From NCBI GenBank assembly GCA_949825025.1, contig OX463781.1, forward strand, positions 8,000,648-8,064,647: a stretch of 64,000 bases of DNA, given 5' to 3'. The notes beneath the pieces are model-generated. The model did no database searches. It was not told the origin of the DNA and saw nothing but the letters and a program-made list of their open reading frames with translations. This DNA is from Siphlonurus alternatus. Its lineage: Eukaryota; Arthropoda; Insecta; Ephemeroptera; Siphlonuridae. The translations under genes and the position numbers were made by a program. This document shows, one piece after another, positions 23,570 to 49,026 of the stretch (its first letter is position 1; each line of letters begins with the position of its first letter).

Positions 23570-23578
23570 ATGGATCAT
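23570..23578. repeat. Left target-site duplication (9 bp)
   Basis: ATGGATCAT stands immediately outside the left terminal inverted repeat and is repeated exactly outside the right one. A 9-bp duplication points to the Mutator superfamily rather than hAT (8 bp), P (7-8 bp), piggyBac (TTAA) or Polinton (6 bp). Confidence 0.93.
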
Positions 23579-23641
23579 ACCGCAGTGAAGTTAGCCACGT
23601 GGATATCCACACGACGTGTGGGAATCGCAGGGGTACCAACA
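23579..23641 (+). repeat. Left terminal inverted repeat (63 bp)
   Basis: It is identical to the reverse complement of 48955-49017. It is GC-rich against an AT-rich background and has inner symmetry: a 12-bp palindrome GTGGATATCCAC and an interrupted inverted repeat CCACACG-A-CGTGTGG. Such paired sites are plausible transposase-binding sites, which is an inference. Confidence 0.95.
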
Positions 23642-23794
23642 ATGTAGAAAAAAAAACACTAAAATGAAGAAATGACATATTAAAGTGATTTTAAAGGAAA
23701 TATAAAGGATTACGATGTTTGAAAATGCTGTTAGAGCAGATCTAAAAAATATAAATGATATCAATCAATTTAAATTAAAAATAAAAATTAAACC
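23642..23794. other. Left subterminal spacer between terminal repeat and array
   Basis: About 150 bp of AT-rich DNA without clear similarity to the 345-bp unit. I see no gene or repeat in it. The corresponding right spacer is different in sequence. Confidence 0.6.
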
Positions 23795-26700
23795 AGCTTC
23801 AAACTTCAAGATTCAAACTTCATGACACCAAGTATGCCATATAACACGGGTATTAGTACATTATAGTACAATTCAAAAGTAACAAAATTGATTTGTTGAA
23901 CTCTGGTGAATTATCAAAATGCGACACCTCCCCCATGTTAAGTATATGGAGCAAAGTTCAAATTCAAATAAACCGAAACATCATACATATTTTTACATGA
24001 AATTTTGTTTGAATTCATTTTGAACCGTATTCTAATGGAAAAAGCAATCAAATTCTGTCAACGATTTTTTCCCGATTTTTTATGAATTTTTGAAAATACG
24101 TATCTATCAACATTTATGGCAAAATGCCGATTCAAATTTGAAGCCGAATTCCCGATTCAAACCTCATGACAAAAAATATGCCACATAATACGAGTATGAA
24201 GTACATTATAGTACAATTCAAAAATGGCAAAATTGAATTGTTGAACTCTGGTGAGTTATCAAAATGCGACACCTCCCCCATGTTAAGTATATGGAGCAAA
24301 GTTCAAATTCAAATAAACCGAAACATCATACATATTTTTACATGAAATTTTGTTTGAATTCATTTTGAACCGTATTCTAATGGAAAAAGCATTCAAATTC
24401 TGTCAACGATTTTTTCCCGATTTTTTATGAATTTTTGAAAATACGTATCTATCAACATTTATGGCAAAATGCCGATTCAAATTTGAAGCCGAATTCCCGA
24501 TTCAAACCTCATGACAAAAAATATGCCACATAATACGAGTATGAAGTACATTATAGTACAATTCAAAAAAGGCAAAATTGATTTGTTGAACTCTGGTGAA
24601 TTATCAAAATGCGACACCTCCCCCATGTTAAGTATATGGAGCAAAGTTCAAATTCAAATAAACCGAAACATCATACATATTTTTACATGAAATTTTGTTT
24701 GAATTCATTTTGAACCGTATTCTAATGGAAAAAGCATTCAAATTCTGTCAACGATTTTTTCCCGATTTTTTATGAATTTTTGAAAATACGTATCTATCAA
24801 CATTTATGGCAAAATGCCGATTCAAATTTGAAGCCGAATTCCCGATTCAAACCTCATGACAAAAAATATGCCACATAATACGAGTATGAAGTACATTATA
24901 GTACAATTCAAAAAAGGCAAAATTGATTTGTTGAACTCTGGTGAATTATCAAAATGCCACACCTCCCCCATGTTAAGTATATGGAGCAAAGTTCAAATTC
25001 AAATAAACCGAAACATCATACATATTTTTACATGAAATTTTGTTTGAATTCATTTTGAACCGTATTCTAATGGAAAAAGCAATCAAATTCTGTCAACGAT
25101 TTTTTCCCGATTTTTTATGAATTTTTGAAAATACGTATCTATCAACATTTATGGCAAAATGCCGATTCAAATTTGAAGCCGAATTCCCGATTCAAACCTC
25201 ATGACAAAAAATATGCCACATAATACGAGTATGAAGTACATTATAGTACAATTCAAAAATGGCAAAATTGATTTGTTGAACTCTTGTGAATTATCAAAAT
25301 GCCACACCTCCCCCATGTTAAGTATATGGAGCAAAGTTCAAATTCAAATAAACCGGAACATCATACATATTTTTACATGAAATTTTGTTTGAATTCATTT
25401 TGAACCGTATTCTAATGGAAAAAGCAATCAAATTCTGTCAACGATTTTTTCCCGATTTTTTATGAATTTTTGAAAATACGTATCTATCAACATTTATGGC
25501 AAAATGCCGATTCAAATTTGAAGCCGAATTCCCGATTCAAACATAAAGGCACCAAGTATGCCATATAACACGAGTATGAAGTACATTATAATACAATTCA
25601 AAAATGGCAAAATTGATTTGTTGAACTCTGGTGAATTATCAAAATGCCACACCTCCCCCATGTTAAGTATATGGAGCAAAGTTCAAATTCAAATAAACCG
25701 GAACATCATACATATTTTTACATGAAATTTTGTTTGAATTCATTTTGAACCGTATTCTAATGGAAAAAGCAATCAAAATCTGTCAACGATTTTTTCCCGA
25801 TTTTTTATGAATTTTTGAAAATACGTATCTATCAACATTTATGGCAAAATGCCGATTCAAATTTGAAGCCGAATTCCCGATTCAAACCTCATGACAAAAA
25901 ATATGCCACATAATACGAGTATGAAGTACATTATAGTACAATTCAAAAATGGCAAAATTGAATTGTTGAACTCTGGTGAATTATCAAAATGCGACACCTC
26001 CCCCATGTTAAGTATATGGAGCAAAGTTCAAATTCAAATAAACCGAAACATCATACATATTTTTACATGAAATTTTGTTTGAATTCATTTTGAACCGTAT
26101 TCTAATGGAAAAAGCAATCAAATTCTGTCAACGATTTTTTCCCGATTTTTTATGAATTTTTGAAAATACGTATCTATCAACATTTATGGCAAAATGCCGA
26201 TTCAAATTTGAAGCCGAATTCCCGATTCAAACCTCATGACAAAAAATATGCCACATAATACGAGTATGAAGTACATTATAGTACAATTCAAAAATGGCAA
26301 AATTGATTTGTTGAACTCTGGTGAATTATCAAAATGCGACACCTCCCCCATGTTAAGTATATGGAGCAAAGTTCAAATTCAAATAAACCGAAACATCATA
26401 CATATTTTTACATGAAATTTTGTTTGAATTCATTTTGAACCGTATTCTAATGGAAAAAGCAATCAAATTCTGTCAACGATTTTTTCCCGATTCCCGATTT
26501 TTTATGAATTTTTGAAAATACGTATCTATCAACATTTATGGCAAAATGCCGATTCAAATTTGAAGCCGAATTCCCGATTCAAACCTCATGACAAAAAATA
26601 TGCCACATAATACGAGTATGAAGTACATTATAGTACAATTCAAAAATGGCAAAATTGAATTGTTGAACTCTGGTGAATTATCAAAATGCGACACCTCCCC

Positions 26701-29700
26701 CATGTTAAGTATATGGAGCTAAGTTCAAATTCAAATAAACCGAAACATCATACATATTTTTACATGAAATTTTGTTTGAATTCATTTTGAACCGTATTCT
26801 AATGGAAAAAGCAATCAAATTCTGTCAACGATTTTTTCCCGATTTTTTATGAATTTTTGAAAATACGTATCTATCAACATTTATGGCAAAATGCCGATTC
26901 AAATTTGAAGCCGAATTCCCGATTCAAACCTCATGACAAAAAATATGCCACATAATACGAGTATGAAGTACATTATAGTACAATTCAAAAATGGCAAAAT
27001 TGAATTGTTGAACTCTGGTGAATTATCAAAATGCGACACCTCCCCCATGTTAAGTATATGGAGCAAAGTTCAAATTCAAATAAACCGAAACATCATACAT
27101 ATTTTTACATGAAATTTTGTTTGAATTCATTTTGAACCGTATTCTAATGGAAAAAGCATTCAAATTCTGTCAACGATTTTTTCCCGATTTTTTATGAATT
27201 TTTGAAAATACGTATCTATCAACATTTATGGCAAAATGCCGATTCAAATTTGAAGCCGAATTCCCGATTCAAACCTCATGACAAAAAATATGCCACATAA
27301 TACGAGTATGAAGTACATTATAGTACAATTCAAAAATGGCAAAATTGATTTGTTGAACTCTGGTGAATTATCAAAATGCCACACCTCCCCCATGTTAAGT
27401 ATATGGAGCAAAGTTCAAATTCAAATAAACCGAAACATCATACATATTTTTACATGAAATTTTGTTTGAATTCATTTTGAACCGTATTCTAATGGAAAAA
27501 GCAATCAAATTCTGTCAACGATTTTTTCCGATTTTTTATGAATTTTTGAAAATACGTATCTATCAACATTTATGGCAAAATGCCGATTCAAATTTGAAGC
27601 CGAATTCCCGATTCAAACCTCATGACAAAAAATATGCCACATAATACGAGTATGAAGTACATTATAGTACAATTCAAAAATGGCAAAATTGAATTGTTGA
27701 ACTCTGGTGAATTATCAAAATGCGACACCTCCCCCATGTTAAGTATATGGAGCAAAGTTCAAATTCAAATAAACCGAAACATCATACATATTTTTACATG
27801 AAATTTTGTTTGAATTCATTTTGAACCGTATTCTAATGGAAAAAGCATTCAAATTCTGTCAACGATTTTTTCCCGATTTTTTATGAATTTTTGAAAATAC
27901 GTATCTATCAACATTTATGGCAAAATGCCGATTCAAATTTGAAGCCGAATTCCCGATTCAAACCTCATGACAAAAAATATGCCACATAATACGAGTATGA
28001 AGTACATTATAGTACAATTCAAAAAAGGCAAAATTGATTTGTTGAACTCTGGTGAATTATCAAAATGCCACACCTTCCCCATGTTAAGTATATGGAGCAA
28101 AGTTCAAATTCAAATAAACCGAAACATCATACATATTTTTACATGAAATTTTGTTTGAATTCATTTTGAACCGTATTCTAATGGAAAAAGCAATCAAATT
28201 CTGTCAACGATTTTTTCCCGATTTTTTATGAATTTTTGAAAATACGTATCTATCAACATTTATGGCAAAATGCCGATTCAAATTTGAAGCCGAATTCCCG
28301 ATTCAAACATAAAGGCACCAAGTATGCCATATAACACGAGTATGAAGTACATTATAATACAATTCAAAAATGGCAAAATTGATTTGTTGAACTCTGGTGA
28401 ATTATCAAAATGCCACACCTCCCCCATGTTAAGTATATGGAGCAAAGTTCAAATTCAAATAAACCGGAACATCATACATATTTTTACATGAAATTTTGTT
28501 TGAATTCATTTTGAACCGTATTCTAATGGAAAAAGCAATCAAATTCTGTCAACGATTTTTTCCCGATTTTTTATGAATTTTTGAAAATACGTATCTATCA
28601 ACATTTATGGCAAAATGCCGATTCAAATTTGAAGCCGAATTCCCGATTCAAACCTCATGACAAAAAATATGCCACATAATACGAGTATGAAGTACATTAT
28701 AGTACAATTCAAAAAAGGCAAAATTGATTTGTTGAACTCTGGTGAATTATCAAAATGCCACACCTCCCCCATGTTAAGTATATGGAGCAAAGTTCAAATT
28801 CAAATAAACCGAAACATCATACATATTTTTACATGAAATTTTGTTTGAATTCATTTTGAACCGTATTCTAATGGAAAAAGCAATCAAATTCTGTCAACGA
28901 TTTTTTCCCGATTTTTTATGAATTTTTGAAAATACGTATCTATCAACATTTATGGCAAAATGCCGATTCAAATTTGAAGCCGAATTCCCGATTCAAACCT
29001 CATGACAAAAAATATGCCACATAATACGAGTATGAAGTACATTATAGTACAATTCAAAAATGGCAAAATTGATTTGTTGAACTCTTGTGAATTATCAAAA
29101 TGCCACACCTCCCCCATGTTAAGTATATGGAGCAAAGTTCAAATTCAAATAAACCGGAACATCATACATATTTTTACATGAAATTTTGTTTGAATTCATT
29201 TTGAACCGTATTCTAATGGAAAAAGCAATCAAATTCTGTCAACGATTTTTTCCCGATTTTTTATGAATTTTTGAAAATACGTATCTATCAACATTTATGG
29301 CAAAATGCCGATTCAAATTTGAAGCCGAATTCCCGATTCAAACATAAAGGCACCAAGTATGCCATATAACACGAGTATGAAGTACATTATAATACAATTC
29401 AAAAATGGCAAAATTGATTTGTTGAACTCTGGTGAATTATCAAAATGCCACACCTCCCCCATGTTAAGTATATGGAGCAAAGTTCAAATTCAAATAAACC
29501 GGAACATCATACATATTTTTACATGAAATTTTGTTTGAATTCATTTTGAACCGTATTCTAATGGAAAAAGCAATCAAAATCTGTCAACGATTTTTTCCCG
29601 ATTTTTTATGAATTTTTGAAAATACGTATCTATCAACATTTATGGCAAAATGCCGATTCAAATTTGAAGCCGAATTCCCGATTCAAACCTCATGACAAAA

Positions 29701-32700
29701 AATATGCCACATAATACGAGTATGAAGTACATTATAGTACAATTCAAAAATGGCAAAATTGAATTGTTGAACTCTGGTGAATTATCAAAATGCGACACCT
29801 CCCCCATGTTAAGTATATGGAGCAAAGTTCAAATTCAAATAAACCGAAACATCATACATATTTTTACATGAAATTTTGTTTGAATTCATTTTGAACCGTA
29901 TTCTAATGGAAAAAGCAATCAAATTCTGTCAACGATTTTTTCCCGATTTTTTATGAATTTTTGAAAATACGTATCTATCAACATTTATGGCAAAATGCCG
30001 ATTCAAATTTGAAGCCGAATTCCCGATTCAAACCTCATGACAAAAAATATGCCACATAATACGAGTATGAAGTACATTATAGTACAATTCAAAAATGGCA
30101 AAATTGATTTGTTGAACTCTGGTGAATTATCAAAATGCGACACCTCCCCCATGTTAAGTATATGGAGCAAAGTTCAAATTCAAATAAACCGAAACATCAT
30201 ACATATTTTTACATGAAATTTTGTTTGAATTCATTTTGAACCGTATTCTAATGGAAAAAGCAATCAAATTCTGTCAACGATTTTTTCCCGATTTTTTATG
30301 AATTTTTGAAAATACGTATCTATCAACATTTATGGCAAAATGCCGATTCAAATTTGAAGCCGAATTCCCGATTCAAACCTCATGACAAAAAATATGCCAC
30401 ATAATACGAGTATGAAGTACATTATAGTACAATTCAAAAATGGCAAAATTGAATTGTTGAACTCTGATGAATTATCAAAATGCGACACCTCCCCCATGTT
30501 AAGTATATGGAGCTAAGTTCAAATTCAAATAAACCGAAACATCATACATATTTTTACATGAAATTTTGTTTGAATTCATTTTGAACCGTATTCTAATGGA
30601 AAAAGCAATCAAATTCTGTCAACGATTTTTTCCCGATTTTTTATGAATTTTTGAAAATACGTATCTATCAACATTTATGGCAAAATGCCGATTCAAATTT
30701 GAAGCCGAATTCCCGATTCAAACCTCATGACAAAAAATATGCCACATAATACGAGTATGAAGTACATTATAGTACAATTCAAAAATGGCAAAATTGAATT
30801 GTTGAACTCTGGTGAATTATCAAAATGCGACACCTCCCCCATGTTAAGTATATGGAGCAAAGTTCAAATTCAAATAAACCGAAACATCATACATATTTTT
30901 ACATGAAATTTTGTTTGAATTCATTTTGAACCGTATTCTAATGGAAAAAGCATTCAAATTCTGTCAACGATTTTTTCCCGATTTTTTATGAATTTTTGAA
31001 AATACGTATCTATCAACATTTATGGCAAAATGCCGATTCAAATTTGAAGCCGAATTCCCGATTCAAACCTCATGACAAAAAATATGCCACATAATACGAG
31101 TATGAAGTACATTATAGTACAATTCAAAAAAGGCAAAATTGATTTGTTGAACTCTGGTGAATTATCAAAATGCCACACCTCCCCCATGTTAAGTATATGG
31201 AGCAAAGTTCAAATTCAAATAAACCGAAACATCATACATATTTTTACATGAAATTTTGTTTGAATTCATTTTGAACCGTATTCTAATGGAAAAAGTAATC
31301 AAATTCTGTCAACGATTTTTTCCCGATTTTTTATGAATTTTTGAAAATACGTATCTATCAACATTTATGGCAAAATGCCGATTCAAATTTGAAGCCGAAT
31401 TCCCGATTCAAACCTCATGACAAAAAATATGCCACATAATACGAGTATGAAGTACATTATAGTACAATTCAAAAATGGCAAAATTGAATTGTTGAACTCT
31501 GGTGAATTATCAAAATGCGACACCTCCCCCATGTTAAGTATATGGAGCAAAGTTCAAATTCAAATAAACCGAAACATCATACATATTTTTACATGAAATT
31601 TTGTTTGAATTCATTTTGAACCGTATTCTAATGGAAAAAGCATTCAAATTCTGTCAACGATTTTTTCCCGATTTTTTATGAATTTTTGAAAATACGTATC
31701 TATCAACATTTATGGCAAAATGCCGATTCAAATTTGAAGCCGAATTCCCGATTCAAACCTCATGACAAAAAATATGCCACATAATACGAGTATGAAGTAC
31801 ATTATAGTACAATTCAAAAAAGGCAAAATTGATTTGTTGAACTCTGGTGAATTATCAAAATGCCACACCTCCCCCATGTTAAGTATATGGAGCAAAGTTC
31901 AAATTCAAATAAACCGAAACATCATACATATTTTTACATGAAATTTTGTTTGAATTCATTTTGAACCGTATTCTAATGGAAAAAGCAATCAAATTCTGTC
32001 AACGATTTTTTCCCGATTTTTTATGAATTTTTGAAAATACGTATCTATCAACATTTATGGCAAAATGCCGATTCAAATTTGAAGCCGAATTCCCGATTCA
32101 AACATAAAGGCACCAAGTATGCCATATAACACGAGTATGAAGTACATTATAATACAATTCAAAAATGGCAAAATTGATTTGTTGAACTCTGGTGAATTAT
32201 CAAAATGCCACACCTCCCCCATGTTAAGTATATGGAGCAAAGTTCAAATTCAAATAAACCGGAACATCATACATATTTTTACATGAAATTTTGTTTGAAT
32301 TCATTTTGAACCGTATTCTAATGGAAAAAGCAATCAAATTCTGTCAACGATTTTTTCCCGATTTTTTATGAATTTTTGAAAATACGTATCTATCAACATT
32401 TATGGCAAAATGCCGATTCAAATTTGAAGCCGAATTCCCGATTCAAACCTCATGACAAAAAATATGCCACATAATACGAGTATGAAGTACATTATAGTAC
32501 AATTCAAAAATGGCAAAATCGAATTGTTGAACTCTGGTGAATTATCAAAATGCGACACCTCCCCCATGTTAAGTATATGGAGCTAAGTTCAAATTCAAAT
32601 AAACCGAAACATCATACATATTTTTACATGAAATTTTGTTTGAATTCATTTTGAACCGTATTCTAATGGAAAAAGCATTCAAATTCTGTCAACGATTTTT

Positions 32701-35700
32701 TCCCGATTTTTTATGAATTTTTGAAAATACGTATCTATCAACATTTATGGCAAAATGCCGATTCAAATTTGAAGCCGAATTCCCGATTCAAACCTCATGA
32801 CAAAAAATATGCCACATAATACGAGTATGAAGTACATTATAGTACAATTCAAAAATGGCAAAATTGATTTGTTGAACTCTGGTGAATTATCAAAATGCCA
32901 CACCTCCCCCATGTTAAGTATATGGAGCAAAGTTCAAATTCAAATAAACCGGAACATCATACATATTTTTACATGAAATTTTGTTTGAATTCATTTTGAA
33001 CCGTATTCTAATGGAAAAAGCAATCAAATTCTGTCAACGATTTTTTCCCGATTTTTTATGAATTTTTGAAAATACGTATCTATCAACATTTATGGCAAAA
33101 TGCCGATTCAAATTTGAAGCCGAATTCCCGATTCAAACATAAAGGCACCAAGTATGCCATATAACACGAGTATGAAGTACATTATAATACAATTCAAAAA
33201 TGGCAAAATTGATTTGTTGAACTCTGGTGAATTATCAAAATGCCACACCTCCCCCATGTTAAGTATATGGAGCAAAGTTCAAATTCAAATAAACCGGAAC
33301 ATCATACATATTTTTACATGAAATTTTGTTTGAATTCATTTTGAACCGTATTCTAATGGAAAAAGCAATCAAATTCTGTCAACGATTTTTTCCCGATTTT
33401 TTATGAATTTTTGAAAATACGTATCTATCAACATTTATGGCAAAATGCCGATTCAAATTTGAAGCCGAATTCCCGATTCAAACATAAAGGCACCAAGTAT
33501 GCCATATAACACGAGTATGAAGTACATTATAATACAATTCAAAAATGGCAAAATTGATTTGTTGAACTCTGGTGAATTATCAAAATGCCACACCTCCCCC
33601 ATGTTAAGTATATGGAGCAAAGTTCAAATTCAAATAAACCGGAACATCATACATATTTTTACATGAAATTTTGTTTGAATTCATTTTGAACCGTATTCTA
33701 ATGGAAAAAGCAATCAAATTCTGTCAACGATTTTTTCCCGATTTTTTATGAATTTTTGAAAATACGTATCTATCAACATTTATGGCAAAATGCCGATTCA
33801 AATTTGAAGCCGAATTCCCGATTCAAACCTCATGACAAAAAATATGCCACATAATACGAGTATGAAGTACATTATAGTACAATTCAAAAATGGCAAAATT
33901 GAATTGTTGAACTCTGGTGAATTATCAAAATGCGACACCTCCCCCATGTTAAGTATATGGAGCTAAGTTCAAATTCAAATAAACCGAAACATCATACATA
34001 TTTTTACATGAAATTTTGTTTGAATTCATTTTGAACCGTATTCTAATGGAAAAAGCATTCAAATTCTGTCAACGATTTTTTCCCGATTTTTTATGAATTT
34101 TTGAAAATACGTATCTATCAACATTTATGGCAAAATGCCGATTCAAATTTGAAGCCGAATTCCCGATTCAAACCTCATGACAAAAAATATGCCACATAAT
34201 ACGAGTATGAAGTACATTATAGTACAATTCAAAAATGGCAAAATTGATTTGTTGAACTCTGGTGAATTATCAAAATGCCACACCTCCCCCATGTTAAGTA
34301 TATGGAGCAAAGTTCAAATTCAAATAAACCGGAACATCATACATATTTTTACATGAAATTTTGTTTGAATTCATTTTGAACCGTATTCTAATGGAAAAAG
34401 CAATCAAATTCTGTCAACGATTTTTTCCCGATTTTTTATGAATTTTTGAAAATACGTATCTATCAACATTTATGGCAAAATGCCGATTCAAATTTGAAGC
34501 CGAATTCCCGATTCAAACATAAAGGCACCAAGTATGCCATATAACACGAGTATGAAGTACATTATAATACAATTCAAAAATGGCAAAATTGATTTGTTGA
34601 ACTCTGGTGAATTATCAAAATGCCACACCTCCCCCATGTTAAGTATATGGAGCAAAGTTCAAATTCAAATAAACCGGAACATCATACATATTTTTACATG
34701 AAATTTTGTTTGAATTCATTTTGAACCGTATTCTAATGGAAAAAGCAATCAAATTCTGTCAACGATTTTTTCCCGATTTTTTATGAATTTTTGAAAATAC
34801 GTATCTATCAACATTTATGGCAAAATGCCGATTCAAATTTGAAGCCGAATTCCCGATTCAAACATAAAGGCACCAAGTATGCCATATAACACGAGTATGA
34901 AGTACATTATAATACAATTCAAAAATGGCAAAATTGATTTGTTGAACTCTGGTGAATTATCAAAATGCCACACCTCCCCCATGTTAAGTATATGGAGCAA
35001 AGTTCAAATTCAAATAAACCGGAACATCATACATATTTTTACATGAAATTTTGTTTGAATTCATTTTGAACCGTATTCTAATGGAAAAAGCAATCAAATT
35101 CTGTCAACGATTTTTTCCCGATTTTTTATGAATTTTTGAAAATACGTATCTATCAACATTTATGGCAAAATGCCGATTCAAATTTGAAGCCGAATTCCCG
35201 ATTCAAACCTCATGACAAAAAATATGCCACATAATACGAGTATGAAGTACATTATAGTACAATTCAAAAATGGCAAAATTGAATTGTTGAACTCTGGTGA
35301 ATTATCAAAATGCGACACCTCCCCCATGTTAAGTATATGGAGCTAAGTTCAAATTCAAATAAACCGAAACATCATACATATTTTTACATGAAATTTTGTT
35401 TGAATTCATTTTGAACCGTATTCTAATGGAAAAAGCATTCAAATTCTGTCAACGATTTTTTCCCGATTTTTTATGAATTTTTGAAAATACGTATCTATCA
35501 ACATTTATGGCAAAATGCCGATTCAAATTTGAAGCCGAATTCCCGATTCAAACCTCATGACAAAAAATATGCCACATAATACGAGTATGAAGTACATTAT
35601 AGTACAATTCAAAAAAGGCAAAATTGATTTGTTGAACTCTGGTGAATTATCAAAATGCCACACCTCCCCCATGTTAAGTATATGGAGCAAAGTTCAAATT

Positions 35701-36876: not shown

Positions 36877-37285
36877 GGCCGCCATAGATCCAAAAATAGA
36901 ATTTGCTCAAAGACTTTGATATTTTCAAAATTTATCTCTTATGACTTATGACCCCTTATTATAGTTAAAAATAATGGAAAAAAAATTAATTTTCATTTTT
37001 TACCCTATTTTGAGGGATGTTCATAGGCCGCCATGGGTCCGAAATTAGAATTGACTTAAAGACTTTGATATTTTTAGAATCTATTGTTTATAACCCCTAA
37101 TTAAGGGGAAAAATAATGAAAAAAATTAAGTATCATTTTTTACCCTATTTTGAGTGACGTCAATAGGCGGGCATAGATTATAAGGCGGGCATAATAAGGA
37201 GTTATAAAAGATATATTCTAAAAATATCAAATTCTTTGAAGAAATTCTAATTTTGGACCTATGGCGGCCTATGAACATCCCTAAA
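36877..37285. repeat. Direct and inverted copies of a ~149-bp GGCCGCCAT repeat
   Basis: GGCCGCCAT at 36877 and 37026 begins two direct copies (149 bp apart), each ending with TTTTTACCCTATTTTGAG. A decayed inverted copy ends with ATGGCGGCCTATGAACATCCCT near 37262-37283. A perfect TGACGTCA sits at 37155-37162, at the end of the second copy. No coding potential is recognised. Confidence 0.85.
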
Positions 37286-38024: not shown

Positions 38025-38042
38025 GTTTTTTTTCTCTGGCAG
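38025..38042 (+). promoter_or_regulatory. Possible 3' splice site upstream of the Ulp1 ORF
   Basis: A T-rich tract ending in CTCTGGCAG followed by GATCAATG resembles an intron acceptor (AG at 38041-38042). A weaker acceptor-like TTTTATAG ends at 38129. Either would place an untranslated first exon further upstream. Confidence 0.3.
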
Positions 38043-38232
38043 GATCAATGTCATTTTGTACGACCCATACGTTCTTGTAAATTAGTATTTTAAATTTAAA
38101 CTTCAATGTAATAATTATTTTTTTTATAGTGCGCTCATAGAAAAAGAAATGGACAATTTATTTCAAATATAAGAAATTGTATTTCATACTTTTAAAATAA
38201 AAAGCTAAACAAATTTCCATTTATTAATAGCA

Positions 38233-40053
38233 ATGGGTAAATCAAGAAGTACAGATGAATTGGCCAAACAGTTACACGAGTATCTTTCCATCCATTTGTC
38301 CAGCTTAGATGAACTAAATCATGTGAGAGGTAAATCAATTTTTAAAAAAGCAGCAAAAATCATGTTTGGTAACACTTATGAAAAAACGGTGTTAAGGGTG
38401 AACAATTTGTGGCGAGATCATGTAAGAAACAAATTTTTAAGTGAATATAGTGAAAAATTAGTTTCCAACATCTCCAAAAGTGAAAAGATTGACGGGCTTC
38501 CAAAAGAAGAGAAAATTGTGAAGGTAGAGGCTCCAACTTGTGAAGGGGAGAATAATGTTGAAATTTCAAAAGATGAAGTTAATAATGAAGTAAAAATACA
38601 TAATGTAGCCATTATCATTAATGTTGAGCCAGGTATGCCTTCACCAAAATCAGTAGTGTCCCCAAAAAATATGGAATGTGAAGCAAAAATCGGAAAATGT
38701 GGTCCTATACTTTCACCAACCAAGGAAGCTAGCGTGGAGAAAGTACAAGAAGATGCTTCGTATACATTGAAAGACGATCAATCTTTGATAATTGATGTTC
38801 ATGAAAACCACCTTGAACTAATCCACAAAGAACCCACTGAGTTTAGCAAACCAGTTTCTGCAACACGCGGTGGTCCAAAAGTAAATGAATCATCTAATAA
38901 CAAGCTCAAACGTTTATTCAATGTTGAAACAAGTGAAAAGAAGAACAGCAAGGATATTTTGCAAACTAAAAAACCAAAATCAAGTGTTGATCCTAGTTTG
39001 GAAACAACGAAAGCTGAAAAACAAGAAGATTGTGAAGACAAATGTAATCCTCCCATCATCTCACAGAAAAATTACAAAAATGAATGGTGGCAAAAATCAA
39101 ATATCATTAATAAAATTCAGATAAATATTGAAACTGGTTTGAGGAGATTGGAGGTAGGTGGATGGCTTAATGATGACATTATTAATTCATTCATCTTCAC
39201 ACAAACAGTGAATGCAAATAAATCGGGAAAAAAAGTGTGGTTCTTTACAACACATACTATGGCTTCAATCACTTATTTAAATGGAGACAACACAATAATT
39301 GCAAAAAATAACATGGTGTTTGATTATGACATTTGGCTACTTCCTACGGGTGTAAATCACAATCACTGGATACTATTTGTAATTTCTTTTAAAAGAAAAG
39401 TAGTTTTATGTTTAGATTCACTGCTCAATCATAAATTGTATGGAAAACCAGTGCTGGAAAAAGTAATGAAATTTGTAGATCGTGCTTACCAGGAATGTCG
39501 AAATGATTCATTTGATTGGCAAGGATGGAATATATATTTTCCAACTGATAATCCTCATCAAAATAATGGCAATGACTGTGGTGTACATGTTTGCGTATGG
39601 TCACACATCATTTGTACCAGTACACACCTCGTCTTCACTCACAACAACATACCTTCAGCTAGAATATATATTATGAATGAATTATTGGAATTTAAAGATC
39701 CTCAGAACAAGTTTCCAGTCCTTACTTGTAAGGTCGAAAAAAAACCACAGCCAGAGAGGAGAATTGTTGGAAACATTTTAAAGGACTCTGTGCCAACAGG
39801 ATTCCATTCAACTCTTCATTTTTGCTCTAGTTTATTGCAGAATGAACTACGAAACGAGCAAAGAAGTGTGTGTTCTAAAGGGAATAAATGTATGTCTCCA
39901 AATACTAGAATGATTCCTTGTTATACATGTTCAGATAGAGTGTACCATTTAGAATGCCTCAGAGTGAGACGTGTCCCTAAAAAACTTTTCTGTTCAACGT
40001 GCAAAACCCCTGAAAGCAGTGGCAAACATTTGAATGTGAAAAAGAAGCAATAG
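38233..40053 (+). CDS. Ulp1/SENP-like (C48) cysteine protease with C-terminal PHD-like finger, transposon-encoded
   Basis: This is an intact ORF of 606 residues. Residues 1-75 are a basic, helix-rich head of unknown function. Residues 80-290 are a charged, low-complexity linker. Residues about 295-495 form a C48 protease domain: WLND at 311-314, His378 followed by Trp379, Asp395 in CLDSL, Gln443 and Cys449 in the QNNGNDCG motif. The His-Asp-Cys triad and oxyanion Gln are all present. Residues 547-590 have the spacing C-x5-C-x9-C-x2-C-x5-H-x2-C-x11-C-x2-C (Cys547, 553, 563, 566, His572, Cys575, 587, 590), a PHD-like zinc finger. Known C48 enzymes cut SUMO or related ubiquitin-like proteins, and PHD fingers often read histone H3. 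The start ATG has G at -3 and +4, and an in-frame TAA lies at 38206-38208. The gene lies between the two inverted arrays of the giant element, so it is most likely an element gene. Its role in transposition or in evading host SUMO control is inferred. An upstream spliced exon cannot be excluded. Confidence 0.9.
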   Translation: MGKSRSTDELAKQLHEYLSIHLSSLDELNHVRGKSIFKKAAKIMFGNTYEKTVLRVNNLWRDHVRNKFLSEYSEKLVSNISKSEKIDGLPKEEKIVKVEAPTCEGENNVEISKDEVNNEVKIHNVAIIINVEPGMPSPKSVVSPKNMECEAKIGKCGPILSPTKEASVEKVQEDASYTLKDDQSLIIDVHENHLELIHKEPTEFSKPVSATRGGPKVNESSNNKLKRLFNVETSEKKNSKDILQTKKPKSSVDPSLETTKAEKQEDCEDKCNPPIISQKNYKNEWWQKSNIINKIQINIETGLRRLEVGGWLNDDIINSFIFTQTVNANKSGKKVWFFTTHTMASITYLNGDNTIIAKNNMVFDYDIWLLPTGVNHNHWILFVISFKRKVVLCLDSLLNHKLYGKPVLEKVMKFVDRAYQECRNDSFDWQGWNIYFPTDNPHQNNGNDCGVHVCVWSHIICTSTHLVFTHNNIPSARIYIMNELLEFKDPQNKFPVLTCKVEKKPQPERRIVGNILKDSVPTGFHSTLHFCSSLLQNELRNEQRSVCSKGNKCMSPNTRMIPCYTCSDRVYHLECLRVRRVPKKLFCSTCKTPESSGKHLNVKKKQ

Positions 40054-40875
40054 CAGAAGAAGTAGTAATTTAGTTCAATGAATGTAGTTTAATTACTATT
40101 TTTCATACTTATGTAGTTTTTAAAAATTAATATGTGTAGATAAAATTTATTTGTCATTCTTTAATTTAGTGGGCCAGTAGAAGAGGAATACTCCGAAATA
40201 CTTGGAGCCTGTACTACTGGTTTATTGGTTTTGTTAGTGAGGGATATTATAATTGTATTAAAACTATTTCTATAGCTAGTTTATTTTACTTTTTTAAAGA
40301 ATTTTTTAAAAACAGTCTCTTTTTATGTACCTTTTCAGTCTTCTTTCGTAACATATTTTGAAGTATTTTTTTTATAATAATTAAATAGAAATTAAGAATA
40401 TTTTTGTCAATATTTAAAAGATTCTAAATAGCTTTTGTTAGACTAATGCTTCTTGAAGATAATATGTTTTGTTTCACATTCAAGGAGTAATGAAGAGGAG
40501 ATAAATTCTCTTCTACAATCAGAGCAGTCACAGCTTGTGTCTTCGCTTAATAACTTGTAAAACAGAGAAAAGCAGGTGAAGGAAAGTAGATTTTGTTAAA
40601 TTTGCAATAATGAATCAAAATTCAAGGATTTCAAAATCATGTAACTATGATGTGTTACATGATTTGTTCTGTTTTTATTCTGAATATTTACAAGAACCAA
40701 TGTCAATTAATTCACAATATAGTCAAATTTGTCGTTTGAAATTTCTACAGTATGTATAATATTATTAATTCAGCAGAAAATGCAAAATATGATTTTGTGT
40801 GTATGAATAAAAATTGTAATAATGTCGAATGGAAAATGGTAATTTTTATTTTGTAAAAGTGATATATTGGAATAA

Positions 40876-40876
<1 letters not shown>
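40054..40876 (+). other. 3' flank of the Ulp1 gene with a polyadenylation signal
   Basis: AT-rich, with no further ORF. AATAAA at 40805-40810 is the best polyadenylation signal for the gene (about 750 bp after the stop). A second AATAAA at 40874-40879 runs straight into a 28-bp A tract. Confidence 0.4.

Positions 40877-40904
<28 letters not shown>
40877..40904 (+). repeat. Poly(A) tract of 28 bp
   Basis: An uninterrupted A run follows AATAAT. It may be a simple repeat or the tail of a retroposed transcript. Confidence 0.85.
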
Positions 40905-40906
<2 letters not shown>

Positions 40907-41008
40907 CTCCTCCCAGGAGCTGCTATGACCTTGTCGTGGTAGGAGGGGCTCACTGTGCCTGAATTGAAAGTCAATAGAGCAGCAGGCACAGTGCTAACAG
41001 GCAGCTCG
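40905..41008. other. GC-rich 100-bp insert-like segment after the poly(A) tract
   Basis: Composition changes sharply after the poly(A). The segment contains two short inverted pairs, CTCCTCCC with TAGGAGGGG and GGCACAGTG with CACTGTGCC, so it can form stems. It looks like part of a dispersed repeat, but I cannot name the family. Confidence 0.4.
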
Positions 41009-41022
41009 AACTTGAATTTTTG

Positions 41023-41086
41023 TTTGGGCATACATGACCAAAATGTATGTATGTGTCACTTGCCCCAAAATACCAACCAACCAACC
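41023..41086 (+). mobile_element. Short 5'-truncated retroelement 3' end with (CCAA)n tail and 14-bp target duplication
   Basis: The 64-bp segment starts TTTGGGCATACATGACC and ends CCAACCAACCAACC. It is flanked by the 14-bp direct repeat AACTTGAATTTTTG (41009-41022 and 41087-41100). A long target duplication with a simple-repeat tail is the hallmark of non-LTR retroposition. A related copy lies on the opposite strand at 52622-52683. Confidence 0.7.
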
Positions 41087-41207
41087 AACTTGAATTTTTG
41101 CATAGAAATGTTAAAGTTTCATATATTTTAATTGCAGAAAAGAATGACAAAATTATTTAAAAAGTCATAATTCAAATTCTTCAAACGGCCCTTGTCCAAA
41201 AATTAAA

Positions 41208-41640
41208 GTAGTGGTCATGATTTGACCACCTAAAATGAGTGGTCAGACCACTAGATTTAATGGTCCTACCACTAAATCTGGTGGTAGTGGTCAGACCAAG
41301 TAGTAACCTTAGTGGTAGGACCACTAGACCAAGTGGTATTGGTCACATCTAGTGGTAGTTGTCAGACCTTAGTGGTAGGACCACTAGATTAAGTGGTAGG
41401 ACCTAAGTGATAGTGGTCAGATCTAGTGGAGTGGTCAGACCAATTGGTAGCCTTAGTGGTAGGACCCAAATGGTAGTGGTCAGATCTAGTGGTAGTGGTA
41501 AAGCAAGTAGTAGCCTTATTGGTAGGAACACTAGACTAAGTGGTAGGACCTAAGTTGTATAGTGGTCAGATCTAGTGGTAGTGGTCAGACGAGGTGGTAG
41601 TGGTCAGACGAGGTGGTAGTGGTAAGAGTGTTAGCCTAAG
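41208..41640. repeat. Irregular minisatellite of AGTGGTAGTGGTCAGA motifs
   Basis: Repeats of GTGGTCAGACC, AGTGGTAGGACCACTAG and CTAGTGGTAGT occur in both orders over about 430 bp. The first part contains inverted versions (CCTACCACTAAATC). It is non-coding. Confidence 0.9.
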
Positions 41641-41810
41641 TGATAAGAGGTGAAATATTTTTATCACTTATTCATTTTTGGTACGAGTTTCATGGCCTGC
41701 ATACATACATTGACTGTCCTGATCAACTGAGGATTTCCACGGTTCCCGCAGTCTCTATCACCTCAGCGAATGCTAGCTGGGACGCGTAACAGGCACATCA
41801 GATCCAGAAA

Positions 41811-41987
41811 AAAATCGGGGCAGGGGGGGGGAAGGGGGCGGGGGCAGGAGGGCGGCTGCAAAATTTGGAAGGGGGCCGGGGGCTACCGAAAATGTTAAAA
41901 AAATTGAAGTGGGGGAAATGCCTATATTGCCGATGATGAATCCAAAATTTTGGGGGAAAGGGCACCTCCCTCCCCCCCGCCGGATTC
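41811..41987 (+). other. G-rich then C-rich tract next to the right array
   Basis: From about 41816 to 41882 there are many runs of 3-9 G, including GGGGGGGGG, GGGGGCGGGGG and GGGGGCCGGGGG, enough for a G-quadruplex on the plus strand. A C-rich run (CTCCCTCCCCCCC) follows at about 41967-41979. The tract ends exactly where the first right-array unit begins. Confidence 0.8.
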
Positions 41988-44900
41988 GTTTGAATCGGGA
42001 ATTCGGCTTCAAATTTGAATCGGCATTTTGCCATAAATGTTGATAGATACGTATTTTCAAAAATTCATAAAAAATCGGGAAAAAATCGTTGACAGATTTT
42101 GATTGCTTTTTCCATTAGAATACGGTTCAAAATGAATTCAAACAAAATTTCATGTAAAAATATGTATGATGTTTCGGTTTATTTGAATTTGAACTTTGCT
42201 CCATATACTTAACATGGGGGAGGTGTGGCATTTTGATAATTCACCAAAGTTCAACAAATCAATTTTGCCATTTTTGAATTGTATTATAATGTACTTCATA
42301 CTCGTATTATGTGGCATATTTTTTGTCATGAGGTTTGAATCGGGAATTCGGCTTCAAATTTGAATCGGTATTTTGCCATAAATGTTGATAGATACGTATT
42401 TTCAAAAATTCATAAAAAATCGGGAAAAAATCGTTGACAGATTTTGATTGCTTTTTCCATTAGAATACGGTTCAAAATGAATTCAAACAAAATTTCATGT
42501 AAAAATATGTATGATGTTTCGGTTTATTTGAATTTGAACTTTGCTCCATATACTTAACATGGGGGAGGTGTGGCATTTTGATAATTCACCAGAGTTCAAA
42601 AAATCAATTTTGCCATTTTTGAATTGTACTATAATGTACTTCATACTCGTATTATGTGGCATATTTTTTGTCATGAGGTTTGAATCGGGAATTCGGCTTC
42701 AAATTTGAATCTGCATTTTGCCATAAATGTTGATAGATACGTATTTTCAAAAATTCATAAAAAATCGGGAAAAAATCGTTGACAGATTTTGATTGCTTTT
42801 TCCATTAGAATACGGTTCAAAATGAATTCAAACAAAATTTCATGTAAAAATATGTATGATGTTTCGGTTTATTTGAATTTGAACTTTGCTCCATATACTT
42901 AACATGGGGGAGGTGTCGCATTTTGATAATTAACCAGAGTTCAACATATCAATTTTGCCATTTTTGAATTGTACTATAATGTACTTCATACTCGTATTAT
43001 GTGGCATATTTTTTGTCATGAGGTTTGAATCGGGAATTCGGCTTCAAATTTGAATCTGCATTTTGCCATAAATGTTGATTGATACGTATTTTCAAAAATT
43101 CATAAAAAATCGGGAAAAAATCGTTGACAGATTTTGATTGCTTTTCCCATTAGAATACGGTTCAAAATGAATTCAAACAAAATTTCATGTAAAAATATGT
43201 ATGATGTTTCGGTTTATTTGAATTTGAACTTTGCTCCATATACTTAACATGGGGGAGGTGTGGCATTTTGATAATTCACCAGAGTTCAACAAATCAATTT
43301 TGCCATTTTTGAATTGTACTATAATGTACTTCATACTCGTATTATGTGCATTATTTTTTGTCATGAGGTTTGAATCGGGAATTCGGCTTCAAATTTGAAT
43401 CGGCATTTTGCCATAAATGTTGATAGATACGTATTTTCAAAAAATTCATAAAAAATCGGGAAAAAATCGTTGACAGAATTTGAATGCTTTTTCCATTAGA
43501 ATACGGTTCAAAATGAATTCAAACAAAATTTCATGTAAAAATATGTATGATGTTTCGGTTTATTTGAATTTGAACTTTGCTCCATATACTTAACATGGGG
43601 GAGGTGTGGCATTTTGATAATTCACCAGAGTTCAACAAATCAATTTTGCCATTTTTGAATTCTACTATAATGTACTTCATACTCGTATTATGTGGCATAC
43701 TTGGTGCCTTTATGTTTGAATCGGGAATTCGGCTTCAAATTTGAATCGGCTTTTTGCATTAATGTTGATAGATACGTATTTTCAAAAATTCATAAAAAAT
43801 CGGGAAAAAATCGTTGACAGATTTTGATTGCTTTTTCAATTAGAATACGGTTCAAAATGAATTCAAACAAAATTTCATGTAAAAATATGTATGATGTTTC
43901 GGTTTATTTGAATTTGAACTTTGCTCCATATACTTAACATGGGGGAGGTGTGGCATTTTGATAATTCACCAGAGTTCAACAAATCAATTTTGCCATTTTT
44001 GAATTGTACTATAATGTACTTCATACTCGTATTATGTGGCATATTTTTTGTCATGAGGTTTGAATCGGGAATTCGGCTTCAAATTTGAATCGGCATTTTG
44101 CCATAAATGTTGATAGATACGTATTTTCAAAAATTCATAAAAAATCGGGAAAAAATCGTTGACAGAATTTGATTGCTTTTTCCATTAGAATACGGTTCAA
44201 AATGAATTCAAACAAAATTTCATGTAAAAATATGTATGATGTTTCGGTTTATTTGAATTTGAACTTTGCTCCATATACTTAACATGGGGGAGGTGTGGCA
44301 TTTTGATAATTCACCAGAGTTCAACAAATCAATTTTGCCATTTTTGAATTGTACTATAATGTACTTCATACTCGTATTATGTGGCATATTTTTTGTCATG
44401 AGGTTTGAATCGGGAATTCGGCTTCAAATTTGAATCTGCATTTTGCCATAAATGTTGATAGATTAGTATTTTCAAAAATTCATAAAAAATCGGGAAAAAA
44501 TCGTTGACAGATTTTGATTGCTTTTCCCATTAGAATATGGTTCAAAATGAATTCAAACAAAATTTCATGTAAAAATATGTATGGTGTTTCGGTTTATTTG
44601 AATTTGAACTTTGCTCCATATACTTAACATGGGGGAGGTGTGGCATTTTGATAATTCACCAGAGTTCAAAAAATCAATTTTGCCATTTTTGAATTGTACT
44701 ATAATGTACTTCATACTCGTATTATGTGGCATATTTTTTGTCATGAGGTTTGAATCGGGAATTCGGCTTCAAATTTGAATCGGCATTTTGCCATAAATGT
44801 TGATAGATACGTATTTTCAAAAATTCATAAAAAATCGGGAAAAAATCGTTGACAGAATTTGAATGCTTTTTCCATTAGAATACGGTTCAAAATGAATTCA

Positions 44901-47900
44901 AACAAAATTTCATGTAAAAATATGTATGATGTTTCGGTTTATTTGAATTTGAACTTTGCTCCATATACTTAACATGGGGAAGGTGTGACATTTTGATAAT
45001 TCACCAGAGTTCAACAAATCAATTTTGCCATTTTTGAATTGTACTATAATGTACTTCATACTCGTATTATGTGGCATACTTGGTGCCTTTATGTTTGAAT
45101 CGGGAATTCGGCTTCAAATTTGAATCGGCATTTTGCCATAAATGTTGATAGATACGTATTTTCAAAAATTCATAAAAAATCGGGAAAAAATCGTTGACAG
45201 ATTTTGATTGCTTTTTCAATTAGAATACGGTTCAAAATGAAATCAAACAAAATTTCATGTAAAAATATGTATGATGTTTCGGTTTATTTGAATTTGAACT
45301 TTGCTCCATATACTTAACATGGGGGAGGTGTGGCATTTTGATAATTCACCAGAGTTCAACAAATCAATTTTGCCATTTTTGAATTGTACTATAATGTACT
45401 TCATACTCGTATTATGTGGCATACTTGGTGCCTTTATGTTTGAATCGGGAATTCGGCTTCAAATTTGAATCGGCATTTTGCATTAATGTTGATAGATACG
45501 TATTTTCAAAAATTCATAAAAAATCGGGAAAAAATCGTTGACAGATTTTGATTGCTTTTTCAATTAGAATACGGTTCAAAATGAATTCAAACAAAATTTC
45601 ATGTAAAAATATGTATGATGTTTCGGTTTATTTGAATTTGAACTTTGCTCCATATACTTAACATGGGGGAGGTGTGGCATTTTGATAATTCACCAGAGTT
45701 CAACAAATCAATTTTGCCATTTTTGAATTGTACTATAATGTACTTCATACTCGTATTATGTGGCATATTTTTTGTCATGAGGTTTGAATCGGGAATTCGG
45801 CTTCAAATTTGAATCGGCATTTTGCCATAAATGTTGATAGATACGTATTTTCAAAAATTCATAAAAAATCGGGAAAAAATCGTTGACAGAATTTGATTGC
45901 TTTTTCCATTAGAATACGGTTCAAAATGAATTCAAACAAAATTTCATGTAAAAATATGTATGATGTTTCGGTTTATTTGAATTTGAACTTTGCTCCATAT
46001 ACTTAACATGGGGGAGGTGTGGCATTTTGATAATTCACCAGAGTTCAACAAATCAATTTTGCCATTTTTGAATTGTACTATAATGTACTTCATACTCGTA
46101 TTATGTGGCATATTTTTTGTCATGAGGTTTGAATCGGGAATTCGGCTTCAAATTTGAATCTGCATTTTGCCATAAATGTTGATAGATTAGTATTTTCAAA
46201 AATTCATAAAAAATCGGGAAAAAATCGTTGACAGATTTTGATTGCTTTTCCCATTAGAATATGGTTCAAAATGAATTCAAACAAAATTTCATGTAAAAAT
46301 ATGTATGATGTTTCGGTTTATTTGAATTTGAACTTTGCTCCATATACTTAACATGGGGGAGGTGTGGCATTTTGATAATTCACCAGAGTTCAAAAAATCA
46401 ATTTTGCCATTTTTGAATTGTACTATAATGTACTTCATACTCGTATTATGTGGCATATTTTTTGTCATGAGGTTTGAATCGGGAATTCGGCTTCAAATTT
46501 GAATCGGCATTTTGCCATAAATGTTGATAGATACGTATTTTCAAAAATTCATAAAAAATCGGGAAAAAATCGTTGACAGAATTTGAATGCTTTTTCCATT
46601 AGAATACGGTTCAAAATGAATTCAAACAAAATTTCATGTAAAAATATGTATGATGTTTCGGTTTATTTGAATTTGAACTTTGCTCCATATACTTAACATG
46701 GGGAAGGTGTGACATTTTGATAATTCACCAGAGTTCAACAAATCAATTTTGCCATTTTTGAATTGTACTATAATGTACTTCATACTCGTATTATGTGGCA
46801 TACTTGGTGCCTTTATGTTTGAATCGGGAATTCGGCTTCAAATTTGAATCGGCATTTTGCCATAAATGTTGATAGATACGTATTTTCAAAAATTCATAAA
46901 AAATCGGGAAAAAATCGTTGACAGATTTTGATTGCTTTTTCAATTAGAATACGGTTCAAAATGAAATCAAACAAAATTTCATGTAAAAATATGTATGATG
47001 TTTCGGTTTATTTGAATTTGAACTTTGCTCCATATACTTAACATGGGGGAGGTGTGGCATTTTGATAATTCACCAGAGTTCAACAAATCAATTTTGCCAT
47101 TTTTGAATTGTACTATAATGTACTTCATACTCGTATTATGTGGCATACTTGGTGCCTTTATGTTTGAATCGGGAATTCGGCTTCAAATTTGAATCGGCAT
47201 TTTGCCATAAATGTTGATAGATACGTATTTTCAAAAATTCATAAAAAATCGGGAAAAAATCGTTGACAGATTTTGATTGCTTTTTCAATTAGAATACGGT
47301 TCAAAATGAATTCAAACAAAATTTCATGTAAAAATATGTATGATGTTTCGGTTTATTTGAATTTGAACTTTGCTCCATATACTTAACATGGGGGAGGTGT
47401 GGCATTTTGATAATTCACCAGAGTTCAACAAATCAATTTTGCCATTTTTGAATTGTACTATAATGTACTTCATACTCGTATTATGTGGCATATTTTTTGT
47501 CATGAGGTTTGAATCGGGAATTCGGCTTCAAATTTGAATCGGCATTTTGCCATAAATGTTGATAGATACGTATTTTCAAAAATTCATAAAAAATCGGGAA
47601 AAAATCGTTGACAGAATTTGATTGCTTTTTCCATTAGAATACGGTTCAAAATGAATTCAAACAAAATTTCATGTAAAAATATGTATGATGTTTCGGTTTA
47701 TTTGAATTTGAACTTTGCTCCATATACTTAACATGGGGGAGGTGTGGCATTTTGATAATTCACCAGAGTTCAACAAATCAATTTTGCCATTTTTGAATTG
47801 TACTATAATGTACTTCATACTCGTATTATGTGGCATATTTTTTGTCATGAGGTTTGAATCGGGAATTCGGCTTCAAATTTGAATCGGCATTTTGCCATAA

Positions 47901-48050
47901 ATGTTGATAGATACGTATTTTCAAAAATTCATAAAAAATCGGGAAAAAATCGTTGACAGATTTTGATTGCTTTTTCCATTAGAATACGGTTCAAAATGAA
48001 TTCAAACAAAATTTCATGTAAAAATATGTATGATGTTTCGGTTTATTTGA
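41988..48050 (-). repeat. Right tandem array of the same 345-bp unit, inverted, about 17.6 copies
   Basis: This is the reverse complement of the left-array unit, with the same variant classes; for example the ATAAAGGCACC type appears as GGTGCCTTTAT at about 43700, 45079, 45424, 46803 and 47148. It is half as long as the left array. The unit at which it starts is not the one at which the left array stops, so the inner borders are asymmetric. It ends abruptly at 48050 within a unit. It forms the right arm of the fold-back element. Confidence 0.97.
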
Positions 48051-48710
48051 AAGTTGAGTCAGTGTTTTTTGCTATAGAATTGCTTGATTTTTTCCCCTTT
48101 AAAAATTCATAACTAATTTTTAAAAAATGATTGAAATTTTTTTAAGTGTTTTCTGGTAGAGGATGATTCGGAATATTATGTTGAATTGAAATAATAAGAA
48201 AATGTATGTATTATCTCTCGTAATTTTTTGAATCGGAAGTAACCCCTTTATTTTTAACATGGGGAACGTACCTGAGTTTGTTAATTCAACAGAATTCAAC
48301 GAACTGAGATCGCTATTTTTTAATTGAACCCAAGGTTAGGGTACATTTGGTTCTTATCATGTACATGTATTTTCAGAAATACTGAATTTCTACTTTAATA
48401 CTAAAGTGGAATCGGAATTTGCTGTGAGAGCTTTTTGTTTACACTTCAAACATTCATAATTAACTAATTTTTAAATAATAATTGTCACTTTGTTAGTGTG
48501 TTTTCGGTTAGAGGACAGTTTAAAATATGTTAAATTTGAATTACAAGAAAAAATATGTATTTGCTCTTCTTATTTTTGAATTTGAAATATCTCTCATATA
48601 CCTAAAATGGGGAAAGTAGTTAAGCTTAATAATTCACCATCGTCTCATTTCACAATTAATTTTTTTAAATTTGTTACTGTTGTGAAATATTTTAAAATTC
48701 ATGATAATTT
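48051..48710 (-). repeat. Degenerate outermost units of the right array
   Basis: Two strongly decayed relatives of the 345-bp unit can be followed by eye. The landmark AACATGGGG at 48256 and AAAATGGGG at 48604 (348 bp apart) are each followed by versions of TTAATTCA(A/C)CA. They look like older units beyond the reach of homogenisation. Confidence 0.75.
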
Positions 48711-48954
48711 AAACATTTTAATAAAATAAAATATAAAATAAAATGTAAATATAAAAAATATATACATATATGAATAAAATATAAAAAGTTTTGGCAGCAC
48801 GTTTTATTCTGCAACTTATGCTGCAGTTTTGCATATGTGATACTTGTAGAACATTATTAAGTGTGTATTGAAACGTATTTTGAGAGTTTCCACCCCTTTC
48901 TATGCTGCCTCCTTCATTTTAATTAATTTACCTAGATTTAGGGATATTTTTGTA
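48711..48954. other. Right subterminal spacer
   Basis: AT-rich sequence between the decayed units and the right terminal repeat. No gene or repeat was recognised. Confidence 0.5.
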
Positions 48955-49017
48955 TGTTGGTACCCCTGCGATTCCCACACGTCGTGTGGATATCCACGTG
49001 GCTAACTTCACTGCGGT
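48955..49017 (-). repeat. Right terminal inverted repeat (63 bp)
   Basis: It is the exact reverse complement of 23579-23641 and ends ...CACTGCGGT directly before the 9-bp duplication. Complete identity means the element is young or that the ends are under selection or gene conversion. Confidence 0.95.
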
Positions 49018-49026
49018 ATGGATCAT
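49018..49026. repeat. Right target-site duplication (9 bp)
   Basis: ATGGATCAT is the exact partner of the copy at 23570-23578. The inferred empty site reads TTGGTG-ATGGATCAT-TTCTACC. Confidence 0.93.

Follow-up and report, generated by a model that had tools for sequence, protein, structure and literature searches.

The dispersal of satellite DNA and the growth of its arrays are usually inferred from old remains. Among the closest described systems in which satellite DNA is still part of a mobile element is Rehavkus-1_TC from Tribolium castaneum, a 9.5-kb element with the 164-bp satellite TCsat23 in its inverted termini, mostly as five and eight monomers, and with several copies that are about 95% identical (PMC10218199). 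Here we analyzed a stretch of 64,000 nucleotides from the mayfly Siphlonurus alternatus (assembly GCA_949825025.1, contig OX463781.1, positions 8,000,648 to 8,064,647 of the forward strand; hereafter the window), which harbors a 25,439-bp element, E1, with two inverted satellite arrays around a core containing a gene for a predicted protease. Very probably, E1 belongs to a recently mobile family of fold-back DNA transposons whose satellite arms travel with the element, whose core encodes a protease, and whose transposase acts in trans. The family resembles Rehavkus-1_TC as a DNA transposon with tandem satellite arrays in its inverted termini, a likeness of descriptions rather than of proteins or terminal inverted repeats (TIRs), and it shares 9-bp duplications with the Rehavkus group at large (PMC6446971). 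The principle of a satellite-armed fold-back element is already in print; the very large size found here is new.

Fold-back arms made of tandem repeats are also known from the Drosophila FoldBack (FB) and FB-NOF elements, the latter being reportedly termed non-autonomous in the title of Badal 2013. FB units are short, about 10–31 bp with one of 155 bp, and in this respect FB and FB-NOF differ from the window family, in a comparison that leaves the NOF protein aside. FB elements can also move segments of hundreds of kb located between them, as described for the Ising TE (PMC6431247), which is a segment between two FB elements and not a single long-armed element such as E1. Tetris/TIR-220 of Drosophila virilis is a fold-back element with a flanking domain, tandem 220-bp arm units, and 8–10 bp duplications; its unit number varies between alleles, it gave rise to a satellite, and its transposase was not found (PMC4079207). 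Unlike the window family, Tetris has TIRs of up to 1.7 kb in its structurally complete copies, no conserved reading frame, and contigs consisting of the unit alone. Composite TIRs with variable tandem repeats are common to the window family, Tm1 of root-knot nematodes, and Galileo of Drosophila; in Tm1 the duplications are of 9 bp and some copies contain a Phantom-like transposase, whereas the units are only about 14 bp long (PMC3169594). Finally, Ulp1 and Ulp1-plus-PHD modules, which we also discuss for the core protein of E1, occur in the proteins of Ulp1-bearing Mutator and Ginger1 elements; the Ginger1 transposase carries the module as a C-terminal domain, whereas in E1 it stands alone (PMC2836005).

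A family of fold-back elements with common ends

E1 occupies positions 23579–49017 of the window and is flanked by the 9-bp target-site duplication ATGGATCAT, whose identical copies at 23570–23578 and 49018–49026 are its only two occurrences in the window, each abutting a TIR. The two TIRs (23579–23641 on the forward strand and 48955–49017 on the reverse strand) are identical at 63 of 63 positions in inverted orientation, and divergence starts immediately past base 63. The left TIR is followed by a 163-bp subterminal region of the L type (23642–23804, forward), which adjoins the TIR at one end in 14 of the 15 copies described below, by the left satellite arm (23805–35814, forward; 12.0 kb), in which an nhmmer unit profile and Tandem Repeats Finder delineated 34 full units of 345 bp with partial units at both edges, and by a 6.2-kb core. 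The right arm (41988–48051, reverse; 6.1 kb) consists of 16 full inverted units and two partial ones according to the same profile. Between it and the right TIR lie two old, diverged units (48050–48264 and 48276–48612, together 48050–48612, reverse; nhmmer E 3.6e-4 and 6e-13) and a 342-bp subterminal region of the R type (48613–48954, reverse), recognized by comparison among the copies. Over the aligned parts, the old units share about 67–69% identity with the current units and 71% with one another, and they were found at 97–99% identity in nine other copies among the matches listed. The unit anchor has no occurrence in the rest of the window, and the TIR sequence gave matches of 6 bases only within the 345-bp unit. 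The original prediction, made from the letters of the sequence, had described perfect 63-bp TIRs, a perfect 9-bp duplication, and inverted arrays of exactly these sizes, all of which we could reproduce; its core, said to be unique, is indeed flanked by arrays but is not merely unique, as it carries a frame of 614 codons.

In the host genome, which comprises 455.7 Mb in 102 contigs, a 131-bp probe from the left end matched at 35 places. From these we recognized 15 paired elements with lengths between 3.4 and 43.3 kb and four further single sites. Perfect 9-bp duplications flank all 15 elements, in 15 different sequences, and the 63-bp TIR is exact at 28 of the 30 ends, with a single substitution at one of the others and a 20-bp deletion at the other (E14). 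Twelve elements, including that of the window, were read whole (E1–E11 and E14); all of them have the same order, in which the units change exactly once from forward to reverse orientation. This is the arrangement of an FB-like fold-back element, although E3 has lost its core and just 18 bp separate its two arrays. The numbers of full units in the left and right arms are 34/16 in E1, 3/8 in E2, 2/3 in E3, 28/23 in E4, 13/4 in E5, 59/42 in E6, 25/10 in E7, 51/46 in E8, 12/12 in E9, 26/14 in E10, 13/21 in E11, and 9/26 in E14, and the two counts are correlated (Spearman 0.67, p 0.017, n 12). A higher conservation of the TIRs than of the subterminal regions was not significant (1 of 126 columns variable against 21 of 505, p 0.10, for 14/15 rows, the "left" end of E15 being left out of the L-type ends).

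The same ends with different duplications at 14 further loci exclude chance and uphold the fold-back interpretation of E1. The support named in advance was a set of copies that agree in their termini but differ in their flanks and in their 9-bp duplications, and all 15 elements are of this kind; neither of the two outcomes named as fatal, the absence of other copies and a segmental inversion or assembly artefact, is what the genome contains. It had also been proposed that the transposon carries, seeds, and moves satellite DNA. Carrying and moving are supported, whereas seeding is not: the listed matches to the 345-bp unit (150 of 200) all lie inside the 15 elements, with 10 of 381 candidates scored. 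The Ulp1-protease gene, the old units by the right end, and the relatives of up to 43 kb go beyond what had been predicted.

Related ends were also seen outside the paired copies. The right end of an older relative lies at L048 (C11:3884900–3885500), with a TIR matching at 57 of 63 positions and a terminal region of the R type that shows 80% identity over 388 bp; we did not find the opposite end of this relative. At L051 (C5:7317100–7317700), a 48-bp TIR stump stands between two copies of TCCATGTGG and looks like an excision with internal loss or a remnant of gap repair; its flanks, judged by eye, resemble what we take to be 5S rRNA genes in opposite directions. L049 and L050 have related termini with a common TGAAGTTA(G/A)CCACGTGG and different outer bases, and L050 resembles by eye a miniature inverted-repeat transposable element (MITE) of about 100 bp. 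The termini of L049 and L050 may be of the family of the helper transposase considered below.

Growth of the arms and inversion of the core

Three near-identical copies revealed how the arms change after insertion. Over a terminal backbone of about 1.2 kb, E7 and E8 show zero substitutions and E6 is 0.08% different (gaps not counted), and the gene differs at 2 to 8 sites among the three, while their arms contain 25/10 (E7), 51/46 (E8), and 59/42 (E6) units, a nearly threefold difference in size between E7 and E8. E6 and E8 have 50 exact blocks of at least 700 bp in common, the longest of 3,258 bp, and we therefore conclude that the arrays came with the element and changed afterwards. E1 contains exact repeats of 1,755 bp (11 units apart) and 1,715 bp (4 units apart) in its left arm and of 897 bp (5 units apart) in its right arm, which represent block amplification inside the arms; the longest exact match between the two arms is 369 bp.

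A tree of the 50 full units of E1 contains a branch with 99/99 support that divides them into one subtype of 13 units (8 from the left arm and 5 from the right) and another of 37 (26 and 11, respectively), each of which is thus represented in both arms. In the subtype of 13, the units of the left arm cluster together (98/95), and those of the right arm do so weakly (84/72). Over 500 units from 12 elements, the mean distance was 0.0316 within an arm, 0.0359 to the other arm of the same element, and 0.0389 or 0.0395 between elements; units shorter than 335 or longer than 360 bp and the four units at the array edges of E1 were excluded from these trees and distances.

The core is reversed relative to the end types in E4, E9, and E12, that is, in three of the 13 scorable copies (the 14 gene-bearing copies minus E15), the flip of E12 being judged from its end types and gene strand. 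Judged by their gene sequences, E4 stands closest to E2, and E9 to E10 and E6; as E2, E10, and E6 are unflipped, at least two of the flips were independent. Both ends of E15 are of the R type, and a perfect 9-bp duplication flanks this element as well. The flips and the sharing of units would be explained if the inverted arms recombine with each other, and E15 would be explained by conversion of one end by the other.

The core gene

The core of E1 contains an open frame of 614 codons (38209–40053, forward), with its first ATG at 38233 (606 aa), compared with a longest frame of 254 codons in 1000 first-order simulated cores. On its 5' side, the core (35815–38208, forward) has minor internal repeats and no Pfam match in six frames; on its 3' side (40054–41987, forward), a 28-base A run and short tandem repeats follow the gene. 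The protein matches Pfam Peptidase_C48 (E 1.3e-15) and the solved structures of SENP1, SENP2, and Ulp1 (E 3.9e-13 to 2.6e-10), and His386, Asp403, Gln451, and Cys457 stand in the catalytic places expected of the Ulp1/SENP (C48) group. The predicted product thus has a Ulp1/SENP (SUMO) protease domain that looks intact. Its C-terminal Cys/His cluster weakly resembles a PHD finger (Pfam E 0.49, below the cut-off; PHF21A structure E 0.16). Among 4944 candidates from a protein collection, no homologue reached E 0.001 or better, comparisons with NCBIfam and with viral contigs returned no match, and a single-sequence structure prediction failed, with a mean predicted local distance difference test score (pLDDT) of 35.5.

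The gene is present in 14 of the 15 elements; in a search that scored 54 candidates and gave 42 matches, it was found nowhere else in the genome at high identity. It is open throughout in E1, E6, E8, E11, and E13 and broken in the nine others, in E15 by one stop and in the remaining eight by frameshifts or insertions, some with additional stops; the gene of E12 is known as two separate pieces.

Transposase and mode of movement

No transposase domain (DDE, MULE, or other; MULE, Mutator-like element) was found by Pfam in six frames of the window core, and the 3.7 kb on the 5' side of the gene in the longer core of E11 gave no domain in six frames either. Apart from the gene and its pieces, the 12 cores have no second frame of at least 130 codons, with the exception of E9, in which a 4.6-kb DDE_3 (Tc1/mariner-like) element with a 2-bp overlap sits inside the Ulp1 gene (L032–L034); as a nested element, it was rejected as the transposase of the family. 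In the genome, 28 MULE-domain matches exceeded the cut-off; nine lie in open frames whose lengths range from 554 to 1400 codons, and the MULE genes include five with 569-codon frames. None of the 28 lies inside the elements, the nearest on the same contig being 369 kb away.

Pairs of copies with common lesions indicate how the family moves. E5 and E14 have two 1-bp deletions and a stop in common, and E2 and E4 have an insertion and a deletion in common, in both pairs at different sites with different duplications. Because copies with a broken gene have moved, the function needed for movement acts in trans, and, with all 28 MULE-domain matches located outside the elements, the family is most likely mobilized in this way. 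The best guess for the enzyme would be a MULE-group transposase, because of the 9-bp duplication, which is present in 15 of 15 elements and is a trait of Rehavkus and MULEs, and because of the known Rehavkus architecture; the label "MULE-like" likewise derives from duplication and architecture. Regarding the Rehavkus trait of a 26–400 bp TIR with a minisatellite nearby, the TIR has 63 bp and the arrays begin 163 bp inside the left TIR, although the unit of 345 bp is of satellite rather than minisatellite size. A helper MULE would be marked by the TIR sequence TGAAGTTAGCCACGTGG together with a 9-bp duplication.

A possible second family with satellite and Ulp1 frame

Besides the copies in the elements, the gene gave 19 matches of lower identity (25–48%), and at all three of the loci fetched a satellite array with a unit of about 160–161 bp lies beside a related Ulp1 frame. 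The array was noted at positions 1–3657 of L052 (C3:24304500–24311500) and 1–2659 of L053 (C1:3398500–3404500), each with a frame 39% identical to the window protein, and positions 4556–5001 of L047 (C11:4957500–4962500), with a frame 25–32% identical to it. This second satellite with its Ulp1 frame is possibly another element family, and the pairing of satellite and Ulp1 may recur in the same genome. Tandem repeats of about 380 bp per unit were also noticed near the Ulp1 frames of L047 (291–1641) and L053 (4341–5319), the two being likened by unit length, not by alignment.

Discussion

The model we favor is that of a recently mobile fold-back transposon family with travelling satellite arms. 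Its copies insert by staggered cutting, which leaves the 9-bp duplications found at no fewer than 15 paired copies, and carry their satellite arrays along, as can be seen between close copies. The arms then grow and shrink by unequal exchange in multi-unit blocks, of which the exact block repeats are the trace, although the enzymology is conjectural. Recombination between the inverted arms could flip the core and occasionally shuffle units and ends, a plausible route to the flipped copies and to the copy with symmetric ends. A transposase, most likely of the MULE/Rehavkus group, would act in trans on the 63-bp TIR. The core protease is probably accessory and might perhaps counteract SUMO-dependent silencing or act on repair.

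Several observations weigh against this model. The evidence comes from one individual, without an allelic empty site, three of the 15 elements were read at their ends only, the exact lengths of the arrays depend on the assembly, and no transposase could be tied to the 63-bp TIRs. E7 and E8, free of substitutions at their ends, differ at 8 sites in the gene. Of 500 units, 237 had their nearest counterpart outside their own array solely in another element's arm of the same side, and 40 had it solely in the other arm of their own element; identical units numbered 175 in the former location as against 23 in the latter. Moreover, the two arms of E2, of E3, and of E4 are more different from each other than the left arm is from other elements. 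Exchange between the arms of one element is thus not the main source of new units; the nearest-unit counts indicate that units are mostly inherited along with their side during transposition, some being exchanged between the sides. Lastly, the ratio of nonsynonymous to synonymous changes (N/S) in the protease frame, counted as differences from the family majority, is near 1 among 11 copies (1.0–1.45 overall), with 0.59–0.85 for changes common to two or more copies and 1.6–2.3 for changes in the four intact copies compared. Strong purifying selection on the gene is unsupported by these ratios; the pattern fits class II copies after insertion and lends no support to a selected function.

The N/S ratio near 1 would also be in keeping with a captured or host gene, possibly a retrocopy, that rides as a passenger without a role in transposition in a non-autonomous (Pack-type) fold-back element, as would the nine of 14 gene copies broken by stop, frameshift, or insertion and the intronless frame followed by the 28-base A run. 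We nevertheless consider a mere passenger somewhat unlikely: the flanking duplication expected of a retrocopy was looked for and not found, the best genomic match outside the elements is 25–48% identical, so that no close host parent is visible, and a related Ulp1 frame adjoins a different satellite array at three of the three such loci fetched. The third of these loci slightly strengthens a reading in which the element is a selfish association of two parts, with the arms as an engine of recombination and amplification, responsible for block expansion, core flipping, and end conversion, and with the SUMO protease lifting silencing or steering the repair of folded arms. As a whole, this elaborate division of labor is quite doubtful.

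An autonomous Rehavkus-type element is improbable. The core protein would then be all or part of the transposase, with a DDE part too diverged or placed in short exons for recognition. Such an element would suit the description of Rehavkus with 9-bp duplications, TIRs of 26–400 bp, a PHD finger, and a minisatellite (PMC6446971), and some Mutator and Ginger1 transposases carry C-terminal Ulp1 and PHD domains (PMC2836005). However, the Pfam scans of the window core and of the upstream segment of E11 contain no transposase domain, the 12 cores lack another long frame except for the nested insert of E9, and movement has included copies whose frames are broken. In general, a segmental inversion or an assembly artefact of an ordinary satellite array can produce inverted arrays of one unit, but this origin is practically negligible here, being refuted by the different 9-bp duplications at 15 loci with the same ends and opposed by the subterminal regions and old units, which are conserved and separate the arrays from the TIRs.

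A mobile fold-back family with satellite arms, as favored here, shows a transposon carrying satellite DNA through a genome while its arms grow, shrink, and recombine. In one genome, near-identical insertions can be dated against each other, with arms of 2 to 59 full units, and the series further comprises flipped cores, a copy whose two ends are of one type, a derivative formed by deletion, and a stump resembling an excision remnant, so that transposition, unequal exchange, and inverted-repeat recombination become measurable copy by copy. In an open-licence library, a scope that leaves out subscription papers and Repbase, we found no account of arms this large in single elements, of the flipping of a core between satellite arms, or of a stand-alone Ulp1 protein in such an element. 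The largest copies, of 43 kb, are far above the complete arthropod MULEs of a recent survey, which range from 1.4 to 10.0 kb (PMC13359780). As transposition efficacy is reviewed to fall significantly past 6 kb of cargo (PMC6431247), these elements provide a test case for the size limit of transposition.

Other features of the window

Ten open frames of the window outside the arrays and the core gave nothing above the Pfam cut-off, and Rfam at gathering scores returned no match. Upstream of E1, positions 15697–19115 form a nested inverted structure, in which 972 bp are inverted relative to 18160–19115 at 95.6% identity; it encloses two self-complementary stretches of about 0.7–0.8 kb and has no clear flanking duplication. 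A MITE-like self-complementary stretch of about 390 bp (87%) lies at 3072–3463, and an ATAC repeat runs without interruption from 5282 to 5856, with 143.8 copies at 100% match.

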